In this document: in pieces, positions 6,215 to 62,600 of the stretch | How positions within the stretch are numbered: the first letter of the stretch is position 1 | How the letters are laid out: every line of letters starts with the position of its first letter | DNA from: Cordylochernes scorpioides | Lineage: Eukaryota; Arthropoda; Arachnida; Pseudoscorpiones; Chernetidae | Length of the DNA stretch: 64,000 nucleotides | Assembly: GCA_030710605.1 (NCBI GenBank) | Contig: CP092877.1 | Span: forward strand, 72,687,006-72,751,005 | Direction of reading: 5' to 3' | Position numbers and translations under genes: made by a program | The notes under the pieces: generated by a model | The model's input: the letters and a program-made list of their open reading frames with translations, nothing else | Told to the model about the DNA's origin: nothing | Database searches by the model: none

Positions 6215-6692
6215 CGTACATACACACTCAAAGAACAAAACTTAGGCAAGTTTCATATTTTGATGTCGCCTGTCGTCTGTTTTTTTTTTTTTTTTTTTTT
6301 TGGAGACAGAAGCAATTTTGTTCATACTTTGGTTATCTCGTAATCTTCAATAAAGGTCACTGTAATATCTTTCAGAGTTATTGTCATAATCCCGATATAC
6401 ATGCTGAAAGGTACAACTTTCTTAAGTTTTGTCCATGAGTGTATATACACCTGGTTATCTCGTGTGTCTTCAATAAAGGTCACTGTAATATCGTTCAGAG
6501 TTATTGTCTGAATCCCGATATACATGTTGAAATGTACCACTTCCTTAAGTTTTTGTCCATGAGTGTATATACACCTGGTTATCCCGTGTGTCTTCAATAA
6601 AGGTCACTGTAATATCTTTCAGAGTTATTGTCTGAATCCCGATATACATGGTAAAAGGTACAAATTCCTTAAGTTTTGTACATGAGTGTATA
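6215..6692 (-). mobile_element. Tc1-like MITE (family C), tandemly expanded
   Basis: The family C termini are inverted copies of CACTCATGGACAAAACTTAAG flanked by TA, typical of Tc1/mariner-type elements. Here the left half (6215-6300, with a long T tract) is followed by three consecutive copies of the right part, with GGTTATCTCG recurring at 6331, 6453 and 6577 (period about 123 bp). Non-coding. The region from 6693 to 7560 is AT-rich with no recognisable gene. Confidence 0.7.
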
Positions 6693-10727: not shown

Positions 10728-10888
10728 ATTTCTGTGAAAAATAGATACTTCGGCCAGTTAGAGTTTTTTATTTTCTCAACATTTCAACAAAAATATTTCT
10801 CCTGACGAAGACAAAATATTTTTGTTGAAACGTTGAGAAAAAAAAAAAACTCTAACTGGCTGAAGTTTCTATTTTTCACAGAAATATT
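10728..10888. repeat. Near-perfect inverted repeat (foldback)
   Basis: Arms of about 73 bp (10728-10801 and 10814-10888) surround a loop of about 12 nt. Both contain AACTCTAACTGGC or its complement and the sequence around ATTTTTGTTGAAA. Probably a foldback MITE. Confidence 0.75.
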
Positions 10889-12515: not shown

Positions 12516-13232
12516 AAAATACACTCAAAGACAAAACTTAAGGAAGTTGTACCTTCTAACATGTATATCGGGATTCAGACAATAACTCTGAAAGATATTA
12601 CAGTGACCTTTATTGAAGACAAACAAGATAACAAGGGTGAACAAAATACTCATAGACAAAACTTAAGGAAGATGTACCTTTTAGCATGTTTATCGGGATT
12701 GAGACAATAACTCTGAAAGATATTACAGTAACCTTTATTGAAGACACACAAGATAACAAGGGTGAACAAAATACTCATAGACAAAACTTAAGGAAGTTGT
12801 ACCTTTTAGCGTGTATATCGGGATTCAGACAATAACTCTGAAAGATATTACAGTAACCTTTATTGAAGACACACGAGATAACAAGGGTGAACAAAATACT
12901 CATAGACAAAACTTAAGGAAGTTGTACCTTTTAGCGTGTATATCGGGATTCAGACAATAACTCTGAAAGATATTACAGTAACCTTTATTGAAGACACACA
13001 AGATAACAAGGGTGAACAAAATACTCATAGACAAAACTTAAGGAAGTTGTACCTTTTAGCGTGTATATCGGGATTCAGACAATAACTCTGAAAGATATTA
13101 CAGTAACCTTTATTGAAGACACACGAGATAACCATGTGTGAACAAAATTGCCTCTGTCTCCCTAAAAAAAAAAAATAGACGACCGTATTAAAGACTTTTC
13201 ACTTCCTTAGGTTTTGTCCATGAGTGTATTTA
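12516..13232 (+). mobile_element. Tc1-like MITE family C, five-fold tandem array
   Basis: Begins TACACTCAAAGACAAAACTT and ends GTTTTGTCCATGAGTGTA, so the outer TIRs are kept. The inner unit is repeated: the TCGGGAT motif recurs near 12568, 12692, 12818, 12942 and 13068 (period 124-126 bp). Confidence 0.8.
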
Positions 13233-16024: not shown

Positions 16025-16600
16025 GTTCTTGTTCCCATTCTATCTCTTTTACAATTGTAACTTCACTTCTTCACTACTCCGTGTATACGGTTGTTCGGCG
16101 GTACATATACTAAAATTGGAAGGATACAGAGAAGATTAGTATGGCTCCTGCGCAAGGATGACAGGCAAAATCGTGAAGCGTTCCAGTTGTAACTTCGATC
16201 TTTTCTTGTTGTCTCTTTCTATCGTTGTTCCAATTGTGACTTTGATCTGTTTTTGTTTCCCCAATATACATCGCATTCTCTGTATAGCTGTTCTAATTGT
16301 AACTATTACCTGTTCTTGTTCCCATTCTATCGTTGTACTAATTGTAACTCTAATATGTTCGTGTTCCCATTCAATCGCTGTTCTAATTGTAACTTCGATC
16401 TGTTCTTGTTACCCCATTCTATCGCTGTTCCAATTGTAACTCTTATCTGTTATTATTCCCATTCTATCGCTGTTCAAATTGTGTGTAACTTCAATCTGTT
16501 CTTGTTATTCCATTCTATCGCTGTTCCAAATGTAACTCTTATCTGTTATTATTCCCATTCTATCGCTGTTCTAATTGTAACTACAATCTCGTTCCCATTC
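16025..16600. repeat. 45-bp minisatellite with a U6 copy inserted
   Basis: The unit is approximately ATCGCTGTTCCAATTGTAAC, then TTCGATCTGTTCTTGTTCCC, then ATTCT. TTGTAAC recurs at about 45-bp spacing (16185 to 16575). A U6-like sequence splits the left part. Confidence 0.8.
16086..16184 (+). ncRNA. U6 snRNA retrocopy (pseudogene), near full length
   Basis: The sequence follows U6 snRNA: the 5' hairpin remnant TTGTTCGGCGGTAC, then CATATACTAAAATTGG, the spliceosomal ACAGAGA box in GATACAGAGAAGATTAG, the GCGCAAGGATGAC stem region and GTGAAGCGTTC. It differs from the conserved U6 at several sites (GGAAGG for GGAACG, TATGGCTCC for CATGGCCCC, ACAGGC for ACACGC). There is no terminal T run for Pol III and no evident snRNA promoter, so it is very likely a dead retrocopy. 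Its 3' GCGTTCCA merges into the minisatellite unit (GCTGTTCCA), suggesting microhomology at the junction. Confidence 0.85.
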
Positions 16601-17559: not shown

Positions 17560-18137
17560 ATTCAAACTTAAGGAAGTGGAAAGTCTTTGATATCGCCGGT
17601 CATCTATTTTTTTTTTTTTTAAGGAGACAGAGGCAATTTTGTTCACACCTGGTTATCTCGTGTGTCTTCAATAAAGGTCACTATAATATCTTTCAGAGTT
17701 ATTGTCTGAATCCCGATATATACATGCTAAAAGGTATAACTTCCTTAAGTTTTGTCCATGAGTGAATACACCTTGGTTATCTCGTGTGTCTTCAATAAAG
17801 GTCACTGTAATATATTTCAGAGTTATTGTCTAAATCCCGATATACATGCTGAAAGGTACAACTTCCTTAAGTTTTGTCCATGAGTGTATATACACCTGGT
17901 TATCTCGTGTGTCTTCAATAAAGGTCACTGTAATATCTTTCAGAGTTATTATCTGAATCCCGATATACATGCTGAAAGGTACAACTTCCTTAAGTTTTGT
18001 CCATGAGTGTATATATACTTGGTTATCTCGTGTGTCTTCAATAAAGATCACTGTAATATCTTTCAGAGTTATTGTCTGAATCCCGATATACATACTGAAA
18101 GGTATAACTTCCTTAAGTTTTGTCCATAAGTGTAATT
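17560..18137 (-). mobile_element. Tc1-like MITE family C, four-fold tandem array
   Basis: Left end AAACTTAAGGAAGTGG, T tract, then four right units with GGTTATCTCG at 17651, 17775, 17898 and 18021 (period about 123 bp), ending at GTTTTGTCCATAAGTGTA. Confidence 0.8.
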
Positions 18138-19435: not shown

Positions 19436-19820
19436 ACTAGATAATTCTAACCTTTTGTGTGAATTTTTTTCTAAAAATAGATACTAGAACTAAGTGTCAT
19501 CTATTAACCCTCTCCATAGCTAACGGACTCGGGTCGGTTACAAAGCCACAAGAGACCAGTTTTGGCAACCGTCTGGAAACCATGGTTTTGTGCTAAATGG
19601 CATTTGTCAGTCTACGGCAGACTTTGATATCATGAGATCCACAAGGAATCCAATGAAATCCTTGGTATTTGTCAAAGATATGTTTAACTTGTAGAGTAGA
19701 AAGGCCAAATCTATGGCTAAAATATAGATGCAAATTTTGCCGGGAGGATATTGATCTATAAAAATGAAAAGGTCACCTTTTCCGTTAAAAGAGACTGAAA
19801 CTAACCCTAATCTATAATGC

Positions 19821-21277
19821 TCAAATAGGAAGGATACAGGGAAGATTAGAAAGGCACCTGTGATACCAGTTCGGCGGTACAACTACTACAATAGGAACGA
19901 TACAGGGAAGATTAGAAAGGCACCTGTGATACCAGTTCGGCGGTACAACTACTACAATAGGAACGATACAGGGAAGATTAGAAAGGCACCTGTGATACCA
20001 GTTCGGCGGTACAACTACTACAACAACAACAACAACAAAAAAGCCTTTATTTAGGGTCACTGACCCTATCGGTACAACTACTACAATAGGAAGGATACAG
20101 AGAATTTTAGAATGGCACTTGTGATACCAGTTCGGCGGTACAACTACTACAATAGGAAGGATACAGAGAAGATTAGCATGGCACTTGTGATACCAGTTCG
20201 TCGGTACAACTACTACAATAGGAAGGATACAGAGAAGATTAGAATGGCACTTGTGATACCAGTTCGGTGGTACAACTACTACAATAGGAAGGATACAGAG
20301 AAGATTAGAATGGCACTTGTGATACCAGTTCGGTGGTACAACTACTACAATAGGAAGGATACAGAGAAGATTAGAATGGCACTTGTGATACCAGTTCGGT
20401 GGTACAACTACTACAATAGGAAGGATACAGAGAAGATTAGAAAGGCACCTGTAATACCAGTTCGGCGGTACAACTACTACAATAGTAAGGATACAGAGAA
20501 GATTAGCATGGCCCCTGTGATACCAGTTCGGCGGTACAATTACTACAATAGGAAGGATACAGAGATGATTAGAAAGGCCCCTGTGATACCAGTTCGGCGG
20601 TACAACTACTACAATAGGAAAGATACAGAGAAGATTAGCATGGTCCCTGTGATACCAGTTCGGCGGTACAACTACTACAATAGTAAGGATACAGAGAAGA
20701 TTAGAAAGGCCCCTGTGATACCAGTTCGGCGGTGCAACTACTACAATAGGAAGGACACAGAGAAGATTAGAAAAGCACCTGTGATACCAGTTCGGCGGTA
20801 CAACTACTACAATAGAAAGGATACAGAGAAGATTAGCATGGCCCCTGTAATACCAGTTCGGCGGTACAACTACTACAATAGGAAGGATACAGAGATGATT
20901 AGAAAGGCCCCTGTGATACCAGTTCGGCGGTACAACTACTACAATAGGAAAGATACAGAGAAGATTAGCATGGTCCCTGTGATACCAGTTCGGCGGTACA
21001 ACTACTACAATAGTAAGGATACAGAGAAGATTAGAAAGGCACCTGTAATACCAGTTCGGCGGTACAACTACTACAATAGGAAGGATACAGAGAAGATTAG
21101 CATGGCCCCTGTGATACCAGTTCGGCGGTACAACTACTACAATAGGAAGGATACAGAGAAGATTAGCATGGCCCCTGTAATACCAGTTCGGCGGTACAAC
21201 TACTACAATAGGAAGGATACAGAGAAGATTAGCATGGTCCCTACGCAAGGATGAGACGCAAAATGTTGAAGCGTTCT
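19821..21277 (+). repeat. U6 snRNA-derived satellite, 66-bp unit, about 21 copies
   Basis: Each unit consists of a U6 5' portion: GTTCGGCGGTAC, a diverged A-rich part (AACTACTACAATAGGAAGG replacing ATATACTAAAATTGGAACG), the ACAGAGA-box part GATACAGAGAAGATTAGCAT and GGCCCCTG, then an 8-nt linker TGATACCA. The last unit alone continues into the U6 3' region (ACGCAAGGATGAGACGC...GAAGCGTTC, 21244-21276), so the array grew from a U6 copy by repetition of its first two-thirds. A higher-order repeat of five units (330 bp) is visible: the diagnostic GAGATGATTAG unit recurs 330 bp apart (about 20565 and 20895). Because 66 is a multiple of three and units lack stops, long frames appear on both strands; I regard them as non-coding. 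Confidence 0.9.
20024..20069 (-). mobile_element. 46-bp LINE 3' tail inserted in U6 satellite, with 17-bp TSD
   Basis: The insert is a (CAA)n run followed by AAGCCTTTATTTAGGG and TCACTGACCCTAT, the reverse of the tail at 26888-26948. It is flanked by CGGTACAACTACTACAA at 20007-20023 and 20070-20086, a perfect 17-bp duplication. This is an extremely 5' truncated LINE insertion into an existing satellite unit. Confidence 0.9.
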
Positions 21278-21724
21278 ATAAAAATAAATAAATTAGGCTC
21301 GATTTAGCATCTATTTGGACGAGAGAGGTGACCATTATTTTTATTGTGTGTTTCCATATACTGTAGATATGCTCTTAAGTAGAAAGAATCGGTTAGGGAT
21401 ATCGGAATGAAAAGTTGCATAACTGGACGTCCAAAATTTTTCAGGCGGCCAGCCCCCGAGTGATTCACCACAATGGCAGCTGGTTCCGGGTCTGAATCAA
21501 CTAGGAACTATCCCCTCCCTCCCAACATGTCTTCCAGGGAAGAAGGTGAAAAAACGGGAATTGAAGAAAAAAATGTCAAACAAGACTCTGACAGTGATGG
21601 ACTTTATCTGAACGACCGATTTTAATTGAATTGTCCCAACTAATTCGTCATCCTATGTGGGACATTCACCTCAAATTTCTGGGCTTCCGGGAAGATTCCA
21701 GAAGTCCTGAAGAATTCTATATGT

Positions 21725-22242
21725 ACTTACACTCATGGACACAACTTAAAGGAGCGTAAAGTCTTTGTTTTCGCCAGTCATATATTTTTACAAAGGAGAC
21801 AGAGACAATTTTGTTAATACTTGGTTATCTCATGTCTTTCAATAAAGATCACTGTAATATCTTTCAGAGTTATTGTCTGAATCCCGATATACATGCTTAA
21901 AGGTACAACTTCCTTAAGTTTTGTCTATGAGTGTATCTTTCAGAGTTATTGTCTGAATCCCGATATACATGCTTAAAGGTACAACTTCCTTATGTTTTGT
22001 TCAAGAGTGTATCTTTCAGAGTTATTGCCTGAATCCCGATATACATGCTTAAAGGTACAACTTCCTTAAGTTTTGTCTATGAGTGTATCTTTCAGAGTTA
22101 TTGTCTGAATCCCGATAAACATGCTTAAAGGTAAAACTTCCTCAAGTTTTGTCCATGAGTGTATCTTTCAGAGTTATTGTCTGAATGCCGATATACATGC
22201 TTAAAGGTACAACTCCCTTAAGTTTTGTCCATGAGTGTAAGT
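21725..22242 (-). mobile_element. Tc1-like MITE family C with 76-bp tandem array
   Basis: The left TIR (TTACACTCATGGACACAAC) is at 21727 and the right TIR (GTTTTGTCCATGAGTGTA) at 22238. The terminal 76 bp is repeated about five times (TATCTTTCAGAG at about 21858, 21934, 22010, 22086 and 22162). The period differs from the 123-bp arrays of the same family. Confidence 0.8.
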
Positions 22243-26819: not shown

Positions 26820-26948
26820 ATTGTTTTTTTTTTCTTTTTCTTCTGTCTATATCGTTGTTTCCTTTGTCTCACTGCTTTGTTCTTATGCATACCTCTGGTG
26901 AATCCTGTATAGGGTCAGTGACCCTAAATAAAGGCTTTTTGTTGTTGT
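26820..26948 (+). mobile_element. LINE 3' tail with (GTT)n
   Basis: GAATCCTGTATAGGGTCAGT then GACCCTAAATAAAGGC and GTTGTTG. This is the family whose tail is also inserted in the U6 satellite at 20024-20069. Confidence 0.65.
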
Positions 26949-32555: not shown

Positions 32556-32850
32556 CGGCCTATGATTATAAAACGACATTTGAAATACTATACCGCATGT
32601 GTTTCTTTTCAGCGAAAATTCAAAATTTATTTCAAGGAGAAATAACGATTATTTCTAACCTTTTGGATGAGGTATGTAAGGGTGAATTGTGAAGAGGATT
32701 ATTTTTCCGTTTATCATTACTCTTCACAATTCACCCTTTCATACCTCATCCGAAGGTTAGAAATAATCGTTATTTCTCCTTGAAATAAATTTTGAATTTT
32801 CGCTGAAAAGAAACACATGCGGGATAGTATTTCAAATGTCGTTTTATTAT
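32556..32850. mobile_element. Foldback MITE family B, complete
   Basis: Arms from ATAAAACGACATTTGAAATA to TATTTCAAATGTCGTTTTAT, about 140 bp each, with a short asymmetric centre near 32700. The best preserved copy in the window. Confidence 0.8.
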
Positions 32851-33447: not shown

Positions 33448-33681
33448 CAGTAGAACCTCCATGAGAAGACACCCGCGCTAGACGACACCTCTCTATAAAG
33501 GACAGAATGCGCAAGGATGACACGCAAAATCGTGAAGCGTTCTATAAAGGACAGTTTTCATTTGCAAAATTACCATTTTTACTATTTAGTAACTCTCCGG
33601 TAAGAGGACATCTCTCCCTAAAGGACATTTTGGCTCTGAAATTAAGTGTTATCCTTTATAGGGAGGTTCTATTGTACTGTA
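33448..33681 (+). mobile_element. pogo-like MITE carrying a U6 insertion
   Basis: Starts TACAGTAGAACCTCC and ends with the inverse GGAGGTTCTATTGTACTGTA, a terminal pattern typical of pogo/Tc1-mariner MITEs with TA target sites. The interior (CCTCTCTATAAAGGACAG, TTACCATTTTTACTATTTAG) matches the uninterrupted relatives at 54692-54870 and 50282-50430 in inverse orientation, except for a 49-bp addition at 33506-33554. Confidence 0.75.
33506..33554 (+). ncRNA. 5'-truncated U6 snRNA retrocopy with 14-bp TSD
   Basis: After AA, bases 33508-33541 equal the U6 3' part from TGCGCAAGG through GATGACACGC to GTGAAGCGTT. It is bounded by perfect TCTATAAAGGACAG copies at 33492-33505 and 33541-33554. Two related MITEs here show the empty site (inverse at about 54808-54835 and 50370-50392). 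This is strong evidence for target-primed reverse transcription of U6 RNA without poly-A. Confidence 0.92.
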
Positions 33682-35519: not shown

Positions 35520-36020
35520 TTGTAAATGTTGTTGTTGTCTTGTCCAATGAAGAGCCTCAGATGTCTCCATACATCTCTATCACAGCAGTCGTTCTCTTTC
35601 TTGGGTGTGTAAAGCTGCTTCTCTGGGTCCATGTCAATTTTATGTTGTTGTTGTCGTGTCCAATGAAGAACCTCAGATGTTTCCATACATCTCTATCATA
35701 GCAGTCGCAATGTTTACTATCTTGGGCGTGTAAAGCTGCTGCTCTGGGTTCATGTCAATTTTTGTTGTTTTCGTGTCCAATGAAGAGCCTCAGATGTTCC
35801 CATGCATCTCTATCACAGCAGTCGCAATGTTCTCTATCTTGGGTGTGTAAAGCTGCTGCTCTGGGTCTATGTCAATTTTCTGCAAGGCTGCGGCCATTGC
35901 TGGGCATGAGAATATATGGGTAGGTGTTAGTTCCACGCCAGGACAGTTGTTGCATGTTCTATAGGTTCTTGTGCCATCTGGATGTATTGTCATTCCTTTA
36001 TGGTGTTTCGTTCTGAGTCT
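35520..36020 (-). pseudogene. LINE C-terminus with its 3' end repeated three times
   Basis: On the minus strand 36000-35790 encodes MTIHPDGTRTYRTCNNCPGV followed by ELTPTHIFSCPAM, a C-x2-C...H...C knuckle, then AAALQKIDIDPEQQLYTPKI. The last part of this unit (from KIDMDPEQQLYTPK to the (CAA)n tail) is then repeated in tandem at about 35690-35785, 35575-35650 and 35520-35570. Similar sets lie at 49430-49690, 58680-59290 and 62130-62600. Confidence 0.75.
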
Positions 36021-49690: not shown

Positions 49691-50281
49691 AGTTTTTGTA
49701 ATTCTTCTCTCAGAGTTTATTTCGCATATTTGATCTTTCCTTATATATTTTTTGAATTATCTTGTATTTTGTCAAAGCATCAAATACTGAAATTTGTTCT
49801 TTCCTTTGGCTCAACTTTCTGGCTTCCTTTGCTAATTCATCTGCCATCTCATTACCCCCGATCCCAACATGGGCAGGAATTCATTATAGAATGCAGTTCT
49901 TCTCCAATGGTTCCAGTTAGGTTAGTAAACGAGGTGTCAAATAAAGTAAAGCACGAAGGAAGATGAGTTTCTTTTCTTTAAAAAAAAAACACATCTTCCT
50001 TCGTGCTTTACTTTATTTGATTACCTAAATAGGAAGAGTTCTATCGCTTAAACGAAGTGTATAGCATTTATATGATCGTAGGAAATGACGATCGGTCAAA
50101 TTGTATCATCCCCCTCCCGAACAACTTCAATCCTAATAGAAAACATAAATGACAACACGATGTTCTGGCCCCTTGCAAAATCAATCACCATATTGTTACA
50201 TTAAATGCACCTATTTTATTATTAATTTCTAATATTATTTTCATATATAGTATAAAACCACCATGAAAAGGACAACATCTA

Positions 50282-54870: not shown

Positions 54871-54992
54871 TAATAACGATGACAGAAATTCACTAATATG
54901 TTTTATCATCATCATTTCAACACCAAAAGATGCTATTTTACACTCGTAGACAAAACTTAAAGGAAGTGGAAAGTCTGTTTTTTTCTCTCTCT

Positions 54993-57239
54993 CGAGCAGA
55001 TATCTCCTTGAATGAGGTGGAAGTTGCCATCAGCCGTCTGCCTCAAGGGAAAGCGGCTGGTTGGGATGGCATACCCTGCGAGCTTGTCAAGGGCTTCGAG
55101 GACTTCTTCGGTGGAGTCATACATCAAGTCCTCGCCGAATCCAAGCTTCGCGGGACTCTTCCAGAATCATCGAGGAGGAATATCATCTGCCTCGTCCCCA
55201 AAGCGCACGGTGGTCCGGGCCTAAGCGGTTACCGGCCCATATCACTTCCGACGGCGGACTACAGAATCGTCAGCGGCGTTCTTCTGGGTCGTCTACGTCG
55301 CCACCTTCCAGCTATCGTGCCGGATTGCCAGACATACGCCGTTCCGGGAAGATGTCCCTCCTGGAACATCGCGTGCGTGTCTGACGAGGTGGCCCAGGCC
55401 TTCAAGAACAAGACACCGCTAGCAGTCATCTCCACCGACCTGCAGTCCGCCTTTGACAACGTGGACCGAGAGTTCCTGGCCTCCCAGCTACGCATCATCG
55501 GCCTACCTCCGCCCTTCATGGAATGGCTCCACCTGCTCTACGCGGAGGCCGACGCTACCATCAAGGTGGATGGAAACTTCACCCGCCCATTCAAAATGCG
55601 CAGAGGGCTTCGGCAGGGTTGTGCCTGCAGTGCAGCCCTTTTCTCCATCTTTACGGGTCCCCTCCTGCGCCACTTGGAGAGAATCCTCGGAAGAGGGAAC
55701 GTCCTGGCGTACGCCGATGACATTCTCCTGCTGATCCGCGAGGATTGGCAGTTTGAGAGAGTCAAGACCATCTTTGACGAATTCCGGCGTGCGTCGGGAG
55801 TCAGCGTCAACTTCCCGAAAAGTAAAGGACTGTGGTGCGGCGCCTGGAGGGACCGTGCCGACTCTCCGCTGGGCATCTCGTGGTCCGCATCCTCCATCAC
55901 GGTACTGGGCTGCGAAATAACATCAGGCCATGGAACCTCGGTCCAGGAAAATCACCTGCTGGGCATCTTGGAGAGGTCGATCTCCAGATGGTCCCCATTT
56001 GTCCGCGGCTTCTCCCTGGTGGGGCGGGCGAGAGCGGCCAACTCGCTAGTACTGGCGGCGGTGCTCCACCATCTGCACGGCTACTTGCCCGGTGATGCCA
56101 CTATCGCCAAACTGCAGGCCAGGCTGACGCGGTTCGTCTGGGGATCCTGCCATCGCGCCGCCTGGCTCCCGGGAGGTCTACTGGCACGTCCTGTGTCCGT
56201 CGGTGGCGTAGGACTGCTCGACATCAGGACCCAACTCCAGCTCGCCTGCTTCAAGGGGGTCCAGGCTGCATCCAGAAATGGAGGCAAGAACGCCTACTCC
56301 TGGCTGGTGGAGTCTGGAGCCTGGATGACCCCCTTGTCCTCGGGTTCCTGGTTGCTGCCTCGCCGCCGCCGGCTGCTGGATCTATGGGGGCAGGCCTCCT
56401 CCATCCTGGGCCTGAACCATCGGGTGTTGCCTGCTCCCACTCTACTGAACCTGCCTCTCGTCGGTGCCTGCAGGTTCCTGGCGACGCCATCGCTTCGGGC
56501 TCCCTCTAGATGGAGAGGAGTTCGCGTCCGCGACCTGGCAGGCCCTGCTCCGCCGCCCATCGCCAGGCTTACAAGAAGCGCCTGCGAAGATGCAGCTGCT
56601 CTTGGGGCATTTTGCCAACGCCTGGTGGCGGACAACGCGACGAGCGTCTACAGGGAGCGGACCTTGGAGGAAGCCGTGGTGCTGCGCGGGACGGCCACGC
56701 CCTTCTTGCGCATCAGCACACGCACTGCGCGTCGCATGTTGGAGCGTCCCCGCCTGGCCGCCGTTCCCATCTCGCGGTATCCCCGGCGCTGGGCGCCTGT
56801 CGTCGACGTGCCCTCCACCAGCCTGGCGTTCTCATCTCTCCGTCGCTGCTCCTTCGGGGGCCATGCAGCGGACATCGCTCTGCGGCTGGCCCTGCACGCC
56901 CTGCCTCATCCGGGGCACCCGGCGTCGAGCCAGCCCGTCTGCATCGCCTGCGGCTCCAGCGACCTGTCGCTGGCTCATCGCTACTGGTCCTGCAGCGCCG
57001 TCCGCCCTCTCATCCGAGAGGTGTTCTCCATCATCGGGCGGCCGCCGGACCTGCAATCCTGGATCTTCGCGGTGAACCTCGAGAACCACGCCATCACCAT
57101 CTCCTCAGCGGCAAAGCATGCCATCTACGTCTTCTTCGTAGATCGCGAGATGCGTGGTATCTCTGGGGACCCATTGGCGATCTTCCATCAAACTCTGCAG
57201 CGGTGGCAGAGGCGCCATGTACATAGTTGTATTTTTTAA
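54993..57239 (+). CDS. Non-LTR retrotransposon reverse transcriptase (Tx1/L1-like), 5' truncated
   Basis: 748 codons without a stop. The enzyme would copy element RNA into DNA at a nicked target. Residue 1 is the first codon after the (TC) tract. Reverse transcriptase blocks in order: GKAAGWDGIPCE near 20-31, PISLPTADYRIV, TYAVPGRCPSWN, STDLQSAFDNVD with catalytic Asp about 149, RRGLRQGCACSAALFSIF, and YADD at 240-243 (plus strand 55710). A thumb-like region and long C-terminal domain follow, with a CIACGSSDLSLAHRYWSC knuckle (Cys 650 and 653, His 662, Cys 667). Endonuclease and ORF1 are absent, so it is truncated compared with a roughly 1,200-residue ORF2. The VPGR and RQGC context suits the Tx1/L1 group. 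GC content is far higher than the surrounding DNA and no frame damage is seen, so the insertion may be young. The upstream frame into the MITE is accidental. Confidence 0.9.
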   Translation, partial: RADISLNEVEVAISRLPQGKAAGWDGIPCELVKGFEDFFGGVIHQVLAESKLRGTLPESSRRNIICLVPKAHGGPGLSGYRPISLPTADYRIVSGVLLGRLRRHLPAIVPDCQTYAVPGRCPSWNIACVSDEVAQAFKNKTPLAVISTDLQSAFDNVDREFLASQLRIIGLPPPFMEWLHLLYAEADATIKVDGNFTRPFKMRRGLRQGCACSAALFSIFTGPLLRHLERILGRGNVLAYADDILLLIREDWQFERVKTIFDEFRRASGVSVNFPKSKGLWCGAWRDRADSPLGISWSASSITVLGCEITSGHGTSVQENHLLGILERSISRWSPFVRGFSLVGRARAANSLVLAAVLHHLHGYLPGDATIAKLQARLTRFVWGSCHRAAWLPGGLLARPVSVGGVGLLDIRTQLQLACFKGVQAASRNGGKNAYSWLVESGAWMTPLSSGSWLLPRRRRLLDLWGQASSILGLNHRVLPAPTLLNLPLVGACRFLATPSLRAPSRWRGVRVRDLAGPAPPPIARLTRSACEDAAALGAFCQRLVADNATSVYRERTLEEAVVLRGTATPFLRISTRTARRMLERPRLAAVPISRYPRRWAPVVDVPSTSLAFSSLRRCSFGGHAADIALRLALHALPHPGHPASSQPVCIACGSSDLSLAHRYWSCSAVRPLIREVFSIIGRPPDLQSWIFAVNLENHAITISSAAKHAIYVFFVDREMRGISGDPLAIFHQTLQRWQRRHVHSCIF

Positions 57240-57365: not shown

Positions 57366-57384
57366 CTCTCTCTCTCTCTCTCTC
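57364..57384 (+). repeat. (TC)n tract between LINE and U6
   Basis: About 20 nt of pure TC. A shorter CTCTCTCTC lies just 5' of the LINE (54985-54993) and a longer one after U6 (57480-57504). Confidence 0.9.
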
Positions 57385-57398
57385 GCTTGTTCGGCGGT

Positions 57399-57438
<40 letters not shown>

Positions 57439-57479
57439 GGCCCCTGCGCAAGGATGACACGCAAAATCGTGAAGCGTTC
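57385..57479 (+). ncRNA. U6 snRNA retrocopy embedded in (TC)n
   Basis: 95 nt that follow conserved U6 almost perfectly: GCTTGTTCGGCGGTACATAT, ACTAAAATTGGAACG, the ACAGAGA box, CATGGCCCCTGCGCAAGG, ATGACACGCAAAATCG and TGAAGCGTTC. It lacks the first few 5' nucleotides and the 3' U-rich end, running straight into (TC)n with TTC microhomology. No upstream snRNA promoter is possible in a TC tract, so it is a retrocopy. It is the cleanest U6 sequence in the window and therefore probably the youngest. Confidence 0.9.
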
Positions 57480-57504
57480 TCTCTCTCTCTCTCTCTCTCT
57501 CTAA
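57480..57504. repeat. (CT)n tract after U6
   Basis: About 25 nt pure CT. It joins the resumed MITE sequence at AAAGAGACAGAGG. Confidence 0.9.
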
Positions 57505-58510: not shown

Positions 58511-58679
58511 TCCTTATTTATGTAAATTCTTGATTCATCTTAAGCATAAATGCATTCCTAAATAATTTTATTCTGTCTTCATATTTGTGTATTTCAACCA
58601 GTAAAGGGGTATGCTTGGCCTTTTAGACAATCGATGACATTTAAGGATGTCAATATTTCGGAGATTTATGTAGACATGT

Positions 58680-59292
58680 TGTTGTCGTGTCCAATGAAGA
58701 GCCTCAGATGTCTCCATGCATCTCTATCACAGCAGTCGTTCTCTATCTTGGGTGTGTAAAGTTACTGTTCTGGGTCCATGTCAATTTTCTGTTGTTGTTG
58801 TTGTGTCCAATGAAGAGCCTCAGATGTCCCCATGTATCTCTATCACAGCAGTCGTAATGTCCTCTATCTTGGTTGTGTAAAACTGCTGTTCTGGGTCCAT
58901 GTCAATTTTCTGTTGTTGCTTTTGTGTCCAATGAAGAGCCTCAGATGGCTCATGTATCTCTATCACAGCAGTCGTAATGTCCTCTATCTTGGTTGTGTAA
59001 AGCTGCTGCTCTGGGTCCATGTTAATTTTCTGTTGTTGACGTGTCCAATGAAGAGCCTCTGATGTCCCCATGTATCTCTATCACAGCAGTCGCAATGTTC
59101 TCTATCTTGGGTGTGTAAAGCTACTGTTCTGGGTCCATGTCAATTTTCTGTTGTTGTCGTGTCCAATGAAGAGCCTCAGATGTTTCCATGCATCTCTATC
59201 ACAGCAGTCGCAATGTCCTCTATCTTGGGTGTGTAAAGCTGTTGTTCTGGGTCCATGTCAATTTTCTGTTGTTGTTGTCGTGTCTATCTTGG
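58680..59292 (-). repeat. LINE 3'-end tandem array, about five copies
   Basis: Units of about 115 bp, each containing GTGTCCAATGAAGAGCCTCA, CATCTCTATCACAGCAGTCG and TTGGGTGTGTAAAGC, separated by GTTGTTG. On the minus strand each encodes KIDMDPEQQLYTPKIE-like residues, i.e. the last codons of the 35520-36020 LINE plus its (CAA)n tail. Confidence 0.85.
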
Positions 59293-62129: not shown

Positions 62130-62600
62130 TAATTGTTGTTGTCGTGTCCAATGAAAAGCCTCAGTTGTCTCCATACATTTCTATCACAGCAGTCGTTCTC
62201 TATCTTGGGTGTGTAAAGCTGCTGTTCTAGGTCCATGTCAATTTTCTGTTGTTGTTGTCGTGTCCAATGAAGATCCTCAGATGTCTCCATACATCTCTAA
62301 CACAGCAGTCGTTCTCTATCTTGGGTGTGTAAAGCTGCTGTTCTGGGTCCGTGTCAATTTTCTGTTGTTGTTGTTGTCGTGTCCAAAGAAGAACCTCAGA
62401 TGTCTTCATGCATCTCTATCACAGCAGTCGTTCTCTATCTTGGGTGTGTAAAGCTGCTGTTCTGGGTCCATGTCAATTTTCTGCAAAGCTGCGGCCATTG
62501 CTGGGCATGAGAATATGTGGATAGGTACAAATAATTGTAGACAACATTTTCTATCTTTTTTGTAGATAAAAGGAATGGTAGATCGTGTGTCTAAATTCAC
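62130..62600 (-). repeat. LINE 3'-end tandem array, four copies, plus knuckle remnant
   Basis: Same units as 58680-59292 at about 62140, 62255, 62370 and 62410-62480. The leftmost-in-element copy continues into FSCPAMAAALQKI (62480-62520 on the minus strand) and then unrelated sequence. Confidence 0.8.

Follow-up and report, generated by a model that had tools for sequence, protein, structure and literature searches.

A tandem array of U6 snRNA sequence in Cordylochernes scorpioides belongs to a dispersed family of short satellite-like arrays

Introduction

A tandem array made from the 5' part of U6 small nuclear RNA in the pseudoscorpion Cordylochernes scorpioides is a 5'-truncated member of a family dispersed over the genome, and is among the more diverged of its members. 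It lies in a stretch of 64,000 nucleotides of contig CP092877.1 (forward-strand positions 72,687,006 to 72,751,005), hereafter the window, from whose first letter positions are counted unless a contig is named. Arrays of this family are found at many places in unrelated flanks, carry the 5' and 3' termini of U6, are bordered by target-site duplications at part of the loci and are homogenised locally. With a probability of roughly 0.6, the window array represents a U6-derived retroelement-satellite with dispersed copies, in which a short multimer was retroposed, expanded within its insertion and homogenised on the spot. Such a multimer, in the putative form of a U6 5' region, a linker, a further U6 5' region and so on up to a full U6 end, would have arisen once; its RNA, as intermediate, would have been copied by a LINE reverse transcriptase, and the copies inserted at many sites with target-site duplications. 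The internal 66-bp repeat would have expanded at or soon after insertion, to about 2 to 74 units, which would afterwards have mutated independently, with some local duplication.

The beginnings of satellites are an open question, since intermediate stages are seldom preserved. Here, a single genome holds a dimer together with shorter and longer arrays of the same small RNA, their ends still recognisable and the scars of insertion preserved, and the order of duplication, dispersal and expansion is therefore directly testable.

Structure of the window array

TRF detected a single U6-derived array in the window, on the forward strand at 19824-21237, with a period of 66 bp, 21.5 copies and 90% matches, bearing out the about 21 units of 66 bp counted in an earlier sequence-only reading. 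TRF, anchor spacing and the Rfam model RF00026 together define the unit as a 58-nt stretch of the U6 5' region followed by the 8-nt linker which that reading had recognised, TGATACCA, or TAATACCA in some units. Twenty anchors give 19 spacings, 18 of exactly 66 bp and one of 129 bp, the latter because 63 bp were gained within one unit (20024-20086). The gain consists of 46 bp (20024-20069) from a (TTG)n-tailed repeat in reverse orientation, a 27-mer of which is found again at 26909-26935, and of 17 bp (20070-20086) that duplicate the CGGTACAACTACTACAA at 20007-20023. The first unit (19824-19868) is truncated at its 5' end and starts mid-unit (AATAGG...), without the U6 leader. The five-unit higher-order repeat of 330 bp that had been proposed exists, its two copies (20454-20783 and 20784-21113) being 96.7% identical compared with 91-93% self-identity at other lags, but it is a single block that was duplicated. 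With the last and the interrupted units omitted, divergence amounts to 3.2 changes per unit, the third highest among 26 arrays. One weak pair of inverted repeats flanks the array. A possible 7-bp target duplication, TCTATAA, lies at 19811-19817 on the left and at 21275-21281 on the right, where it overlaps the final bases of the U6 homology; it is not significant alone, its score being matched by 12.9% of mispaired flanks.

The U6 identity of the monomers, including the ACAGAGA box, was upheld: six of them passed the gathering score in cmscan, aligned to U6 1-63 or 1-65 with 48.6-50.2 bits (E 1e-9 to 4e-9), and the box occurs 18 times across the array as ACAGAGA and three times as ACAGGGA. At E values up to 1, 17 U6 matches fall inside the array, i.e. 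some units go unlisted. The consensus monomer of the family differs from U6 at five of 58 nt (91% identity). Only the last unit, as had been claimed, reaches the U6 3' end; this terminal unit (21180-21285, forward strand) matches the whole model (RF00026 1-105, 82.3 bits, E 2.1e-19), aligns to the U6 gene sequence at 88% identity over 95 nt, and has U6 homology up to GCGTTC at 21276, or to 21280 by BLAST. Monomers matching U6 no better than random sequence, or an array end failing to align to U6, had been named beforehand as fatal to the idea; neither was found.

Dispersal through the genome

The search of the assembly for the monomer that the sequence-only reading had called for proved productive. 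A 33-letter unit junction, allowing at most one mismatch, has 13,820 matches in the 2.62-Gb genome (24 contigs), against none for the reversed pattern. In 28 tested loci, 624 such matches correspond to 807 units, which suggests a genome total of about 18,000 units or 1.2 Mb, a rough figure, the loci having been picked by match quality or list order. Two DNA searches for array loci, in which the best 40 of 953 and the best 40 of 1,808 first-look candidates were scored, yielded a compilation of at least 76 array loci on 22 of the 24 contigs, both query loci counted.

The array had been thought to have formed from a U6 copy whose first two-thirds was repeated. That the 5' two-thirds of U6 was made tandem stands; that this happened to a U6 copy at the window site does not, because the monomer, the linker and fixed changes are common to 19 independent sites and thousands of units. 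A convergent local birth, in which every array formed on site from a resident U6 copy, would have found abundant raw material, since the genome is rich in U6 retrocopies: the 34 nt that run up to GCGTTC, with at most one mismatch, have 2,492 matches genome-wide (control 0; array ends included). The linker TGATACCA and the five changes from U6 nevertheless recur in the consensus of the 21 compared arrays, which renders convergent birth hardly credible and, in our view, would already refute it. The number of these near-perfect 3' tails is not directly comparable with the 253-2,849 U6-derived sequences described for placental mammals, which were counted by a looser BLAST criterion (PMC4476161). 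Tandem repeats are difficult to assemble, but it is very improbable that the arrays are an artefact of assembly, as flanks, lengths and unit variants differ among the compared loci.

Array loci are crowded, with 24 pairs within 1 Mb among the 76 where 2.2 are expected, and eight pairs against 1.7 after merging of loci within 0.1 Mb; crowding is also seen among 43 plain U6 loci (eight pairs vs 0.7 expected). This crowding suits local DNA duplication too, and counts against the retroposition reading. A preference for chromosome ends special to the arrays was considered and rejected, the outer 20% holding 30 of 49 arrays (expected 19.6) and 18 of 31 plain U6 copies (expected 12.4). Among the first 100 exact matches listed in each case, contig C1 has 14 array clusters and 34 U6 tails at 0-66 Mb, of which none of the clusters and 32 of the tails lie at 7.1-63.5 Mb; no conclusion is drawn from this contrast.

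Insertion sites and target duplications

The flanks of 21 arrays, the window copy and 20 others, were compared in 210 pairs, only two of which share sequence to the array edge; in L031/L032, a third pair, the common sequence is a 192-bp repeat lying 139-162 bp from the edge. The 21 arrays thus occupy 19 independent sites. Two pairs, L029/L035 and L044/L045, are inverted duplicates about 20 kb apart. In the former, the flanks are 92.7-93.7% identical and each locus has about 40 units; in the latter, the flanks are about 94% identical, the units number 42 vs 35, and a canonical first unit is present in L044 only. No clear colinearity of unit order was found in either pair despite the 92-94% identity of their flanks.

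Target duplications were assessed in 24 loci, a set that omits the duplicates L035 and L045 as well as L001, L050 and L052, by the best ungapped match between the two edges of an array, each taken 10-12 bp into the element, with 20,000 permutations. The score averages 7.4 for an array's own flanks vs 5.2 for mispaired ones (p = 5e-5, n = 24). Eight of the 24 loci (L030, L031, L034, L043, L044, L051, L053 and L054) are singly in the top 5% of mispairs, the duplication of L044 sitting inside a TC microsatellite, and 16, including the window copy, have no individually significant duplication. Outside this set, the 4.9-kb array of L052/L057 is surrounded by a 14-bp duplication, CTAG[T/C]TCACAACCA, and bounded by CTAGTTCACAACCA and CTAGCTCACAACCA.

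These data also bear on dispersal at the DNA level, in which arrays would move as circles, be carried by a DNA transposon or spread through segmental duplication and recombination. The inverted duplicate pairs, the regional crowding of arrays and the link between satellites and Helitrons described in oyster (PMC8268682) would lend themselves to such dispersal. We regard it as improbable: the termini of many copies are the ends of U6, duplications of variable length occur at part of the loci, and the 19 independent sites, compared to the array edge, have no common element and no shared transposon termini of the kind that Helitron- or transposon-borne satellites would carry.

Anatomy of the array loci

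Twenty-nine array loci were read, namely the window array, L029-L048, L050-L056 and L001 (L049 overlaps L050, and L057 supplies the 3' end of L052), with about 2 to 74 units per locus. Intact arrays begin with a U6 leader, continue with units joined by the linker and close with the U6 3' tail. The leader is kept in 15 of the 29 and absent in 14; the fullest array leader reads GTAC[A/G]CGCTT, whereas U6 gene copies have GTACTCGCTT. The tail is kept in 21 arrays, in ten of which it stops directly after the GCGTTC position, and is lacking in eight (L033, L037, L039, L040, L046, L047, L048 and L050). These missing leaders and tails, like the 16 loci with no individually significant duplication, weigh against the retroposition reading. 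Besides the window copy, at least ten arrays end in a full-model U6 match (15 loci scanned, among the best 150 of 378 matches).

Array starts fall at many unit phases. The first unit equals canonical U6 at all four diagnostic sites in L031, L041, L044, L054 and L055, and inner units are canonical at three or more of these sites in nine of 756 cases, four of them in L055, where the canonical first unit was multiplied instead (five of six units). In L001, as judged by eye, units 1, 2, 6 and 7 are canonical and units 3-5 are of the array type. The smallest form is L053, with only two units and a TACAACCA duplication; the largest array, L052/L057, has about 74 units over about 4.9 kb, in a sample of loci chosen by match quality and list order. 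At L050 (C1:1002300-1006000), the array abuts an inverted U6 copy in a fold-back arrangement.

Expansion and local homogenisation

The consensus of a locus equals the global consensus in 14 of 21 arrays and differs from it by one base in the other seven. Among 644 units of 66 bp, none of the 160 unit types with three or more changes is common to different loci, while 28 recur within one locus. Variants are shared within a locus at 84%, compared with 63% after units are shuffled among loci (shuffle maximum 66.8%), in a test of 19 loci and 601 units that omits terminal units, units of other lengths than 66 bp, units with more than 12 changes, small loci and two duplicates. From these three results, it follows that the units were near-identical when an array formed and that later changes spread locally. 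Sites 30 and 53 of the unit are mixed in many loci, and some heterogeneity may therefore date from insertion. Expansion from a short form is argued for by the two-unit L053 and by L055, in which the canonical unit was multiplied. Together, the homogeneity of the units and the data from the duplicate pairs fit an expansion at or soon after insertion, but may also suit the copying of whole arrays from a homogeneous source.

Alternatively, whole arrays may have been retroposed, a master locus giving kilobase multimeric transcripts of which the arrays would be near-full or 5'-truncated copies, with no expansion at insertion. Starts at many unit phases resemble 5' truncation, runs of T in the unit consensus do not exceed two, so that Pol III need not stop inside it, L029 and L035, as copies of one locus with about 40 units each, indicate that length was reached early, and site 30 is mixed in many loci. 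We consider this possible yet unlikely, given that arrays of anything from 2 to about 74 units have termini of one kind, that L055 multiplied a different unit, and that no strongly marked unit type is common to different loci. A bolder proposal, which we put forward only as a doubtful speculation, is that multimeric U6 transcripts constitute a living retroelement family, reverse transcription itself multiplying the 66-nt unit so that each insertion would deliver a kilobase array and seed satellite DNA across the chromosomes.

Tests for function

No function of the array is indicated by conservation of the ACAGAGA box or by folding of the unit. Selection on the box was rejected, with 39 change events placing it at rank 15 of 60 seven-base windows, which is nothing special. 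Restoration of the U6 5' stem by the linker was likewise dismissed, as neither the stretch in question (z +0.3) nor the whole array unit (z +2.3) folds better than shuffled sequence, while a U6 gene copy does (z -3.6). Reading frames of 396 aa (forward strand) and 484 aa (reverse strand) exist, staying open because 66 is 3 x 22, and a coding role was discarded.

Other U6 copies and repeats

Among the best candidates, 48 of 49 scored U6 matches reach at least 103 bits. U2, taken as control, has one match at 133.6 bits followed by a fast decay, 31 of the 39 listed exceeding the cut-off; the best 46 (U2) and 48 (U6) candidates were scored for this comparison. Animal U6 genes use an external promoter, in agreement with the TATA-bearing upstream region common to four U6 gene copies on contig C20 (L003-L006). 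No TATA box was seen by eye upstream of L001, the only array inspected, and no source locus with a U6 promoter came to light in this analysis, which counts against the retroposition reading.

There are four U6-derived insertions in the window, the array included. A single copy at 57383-57488, identical to the U6 gene sequence over 98 nt, sits within a (TC)n tract that immediately follows an open LINE frame for reverse transcriptase (54897-57239, PF00078). U6 retrocopies also occur at 16083-16192 and 33508-33546, one adjoining a 45-bp tandem repeat and one being a 3' fragment. TRF further revealed two minisatellite families that recur in the window, one of about 124 bp (6330-6692, 12523-13148, 17645-18134 and 21858-22239, the last called with period 76) and one of about 118 bp (35529-35879, 58677-59275 and 62133-62483), each as separate short arrays, so that dispersal in this form may be a general feature of the genome. 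At 10729-10884, 32649-32768 and 49927-50028, several unrelated microRNA models match without reaching the gathering score, in some cases on both strands; these stretches are perhaps small inverted-repeat elements.

Comparison with known systems

The suspected novelty of the array holds in so far as no U6-derived satellite was found in the open-access literature searched, but the build is that of SINE-derived satellites. Classical heterochromatic satellites are confined to one or a few sites, where their arrays are very long; here the maximum among 29 arrays is about 4.9 kb, at many sites. SINEs with snRNA-derived heads were reportedly described by Kojima in 2015, an snRNA having likewise been turned into a dispersed repeat. 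SVA is a retroelement mobilised in trans, as the U6 arrays would be, and in both the number of internal tandem repeats varies; SVA differs in being a composite Alu/VNTR/SINE-R element with no snRNA. The source of 5S rDNA-derived satellites is a tandem gene cluster and not retrocopies. Such satellites, as described for Hoplias, Physalaemus and Plantago in titles cited by PMC12692304, were likewise born from a small RNA gene, and the SVA elements of apes are named in PMC13174262.

Features of processed U6 pseudogenes are present in the arrays, in the terminal unit (21180-21285) as U6 homology over the full model and at family level as target-site duplications. In some mammals, 3'-truncated U6 retrocopies with target-site duplications are frequent and are proposed to stem from reverse transcription that initiated internally; processed U6 pseudogenes there resemble the arrays in U6 sequence, target-site duplications and loss of the last U6 nucleotides, but are described as single copies, in an article whose main text does not contain the word 'tandem' (PMC4476161). 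Often lying between short duplications, the U6 arrays connect pseudogene formation with the birth of satellite DNA, and would make a spliceosomal snRNA a source of the latter.

The nearest published kind is the SINE-derived satellite (sSat) of squamate reptiles, as described in PMC10702118. The sSat3 of snakes has a 67-nt unit, compared with 66 bp here, and in both systems the unit comes from within a small-RNA element, retroposed in the snakes and probably so here. Like the U6 arrays, sSats have a longer terminal unit reaching the end of the element, are dispersed at up to thousands of loci, a number reached in most snake species, and are homogeneous within and between loci, with alternating variants at some (PMC10702118). 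In contrast, sSats derive from a SINE, and promoter box B belongs to the part that is repeated, whereas the arrays derive from spliceosomal U6 RNA; snake loci run to hundreds of units at the longest (PMC10702118), the U6 arrays read to about 74. An internal unit with a terminal unit reaching the element's end was found in 21 of 29 arrays, but their source is U6 and not a SINE that carries its Pol III promoter internally. By this analogy, the U6 array would work like a SINE-derived satellite, yet is not classed as a member, and would show U6 retrocopies behaving much like a SINE family.
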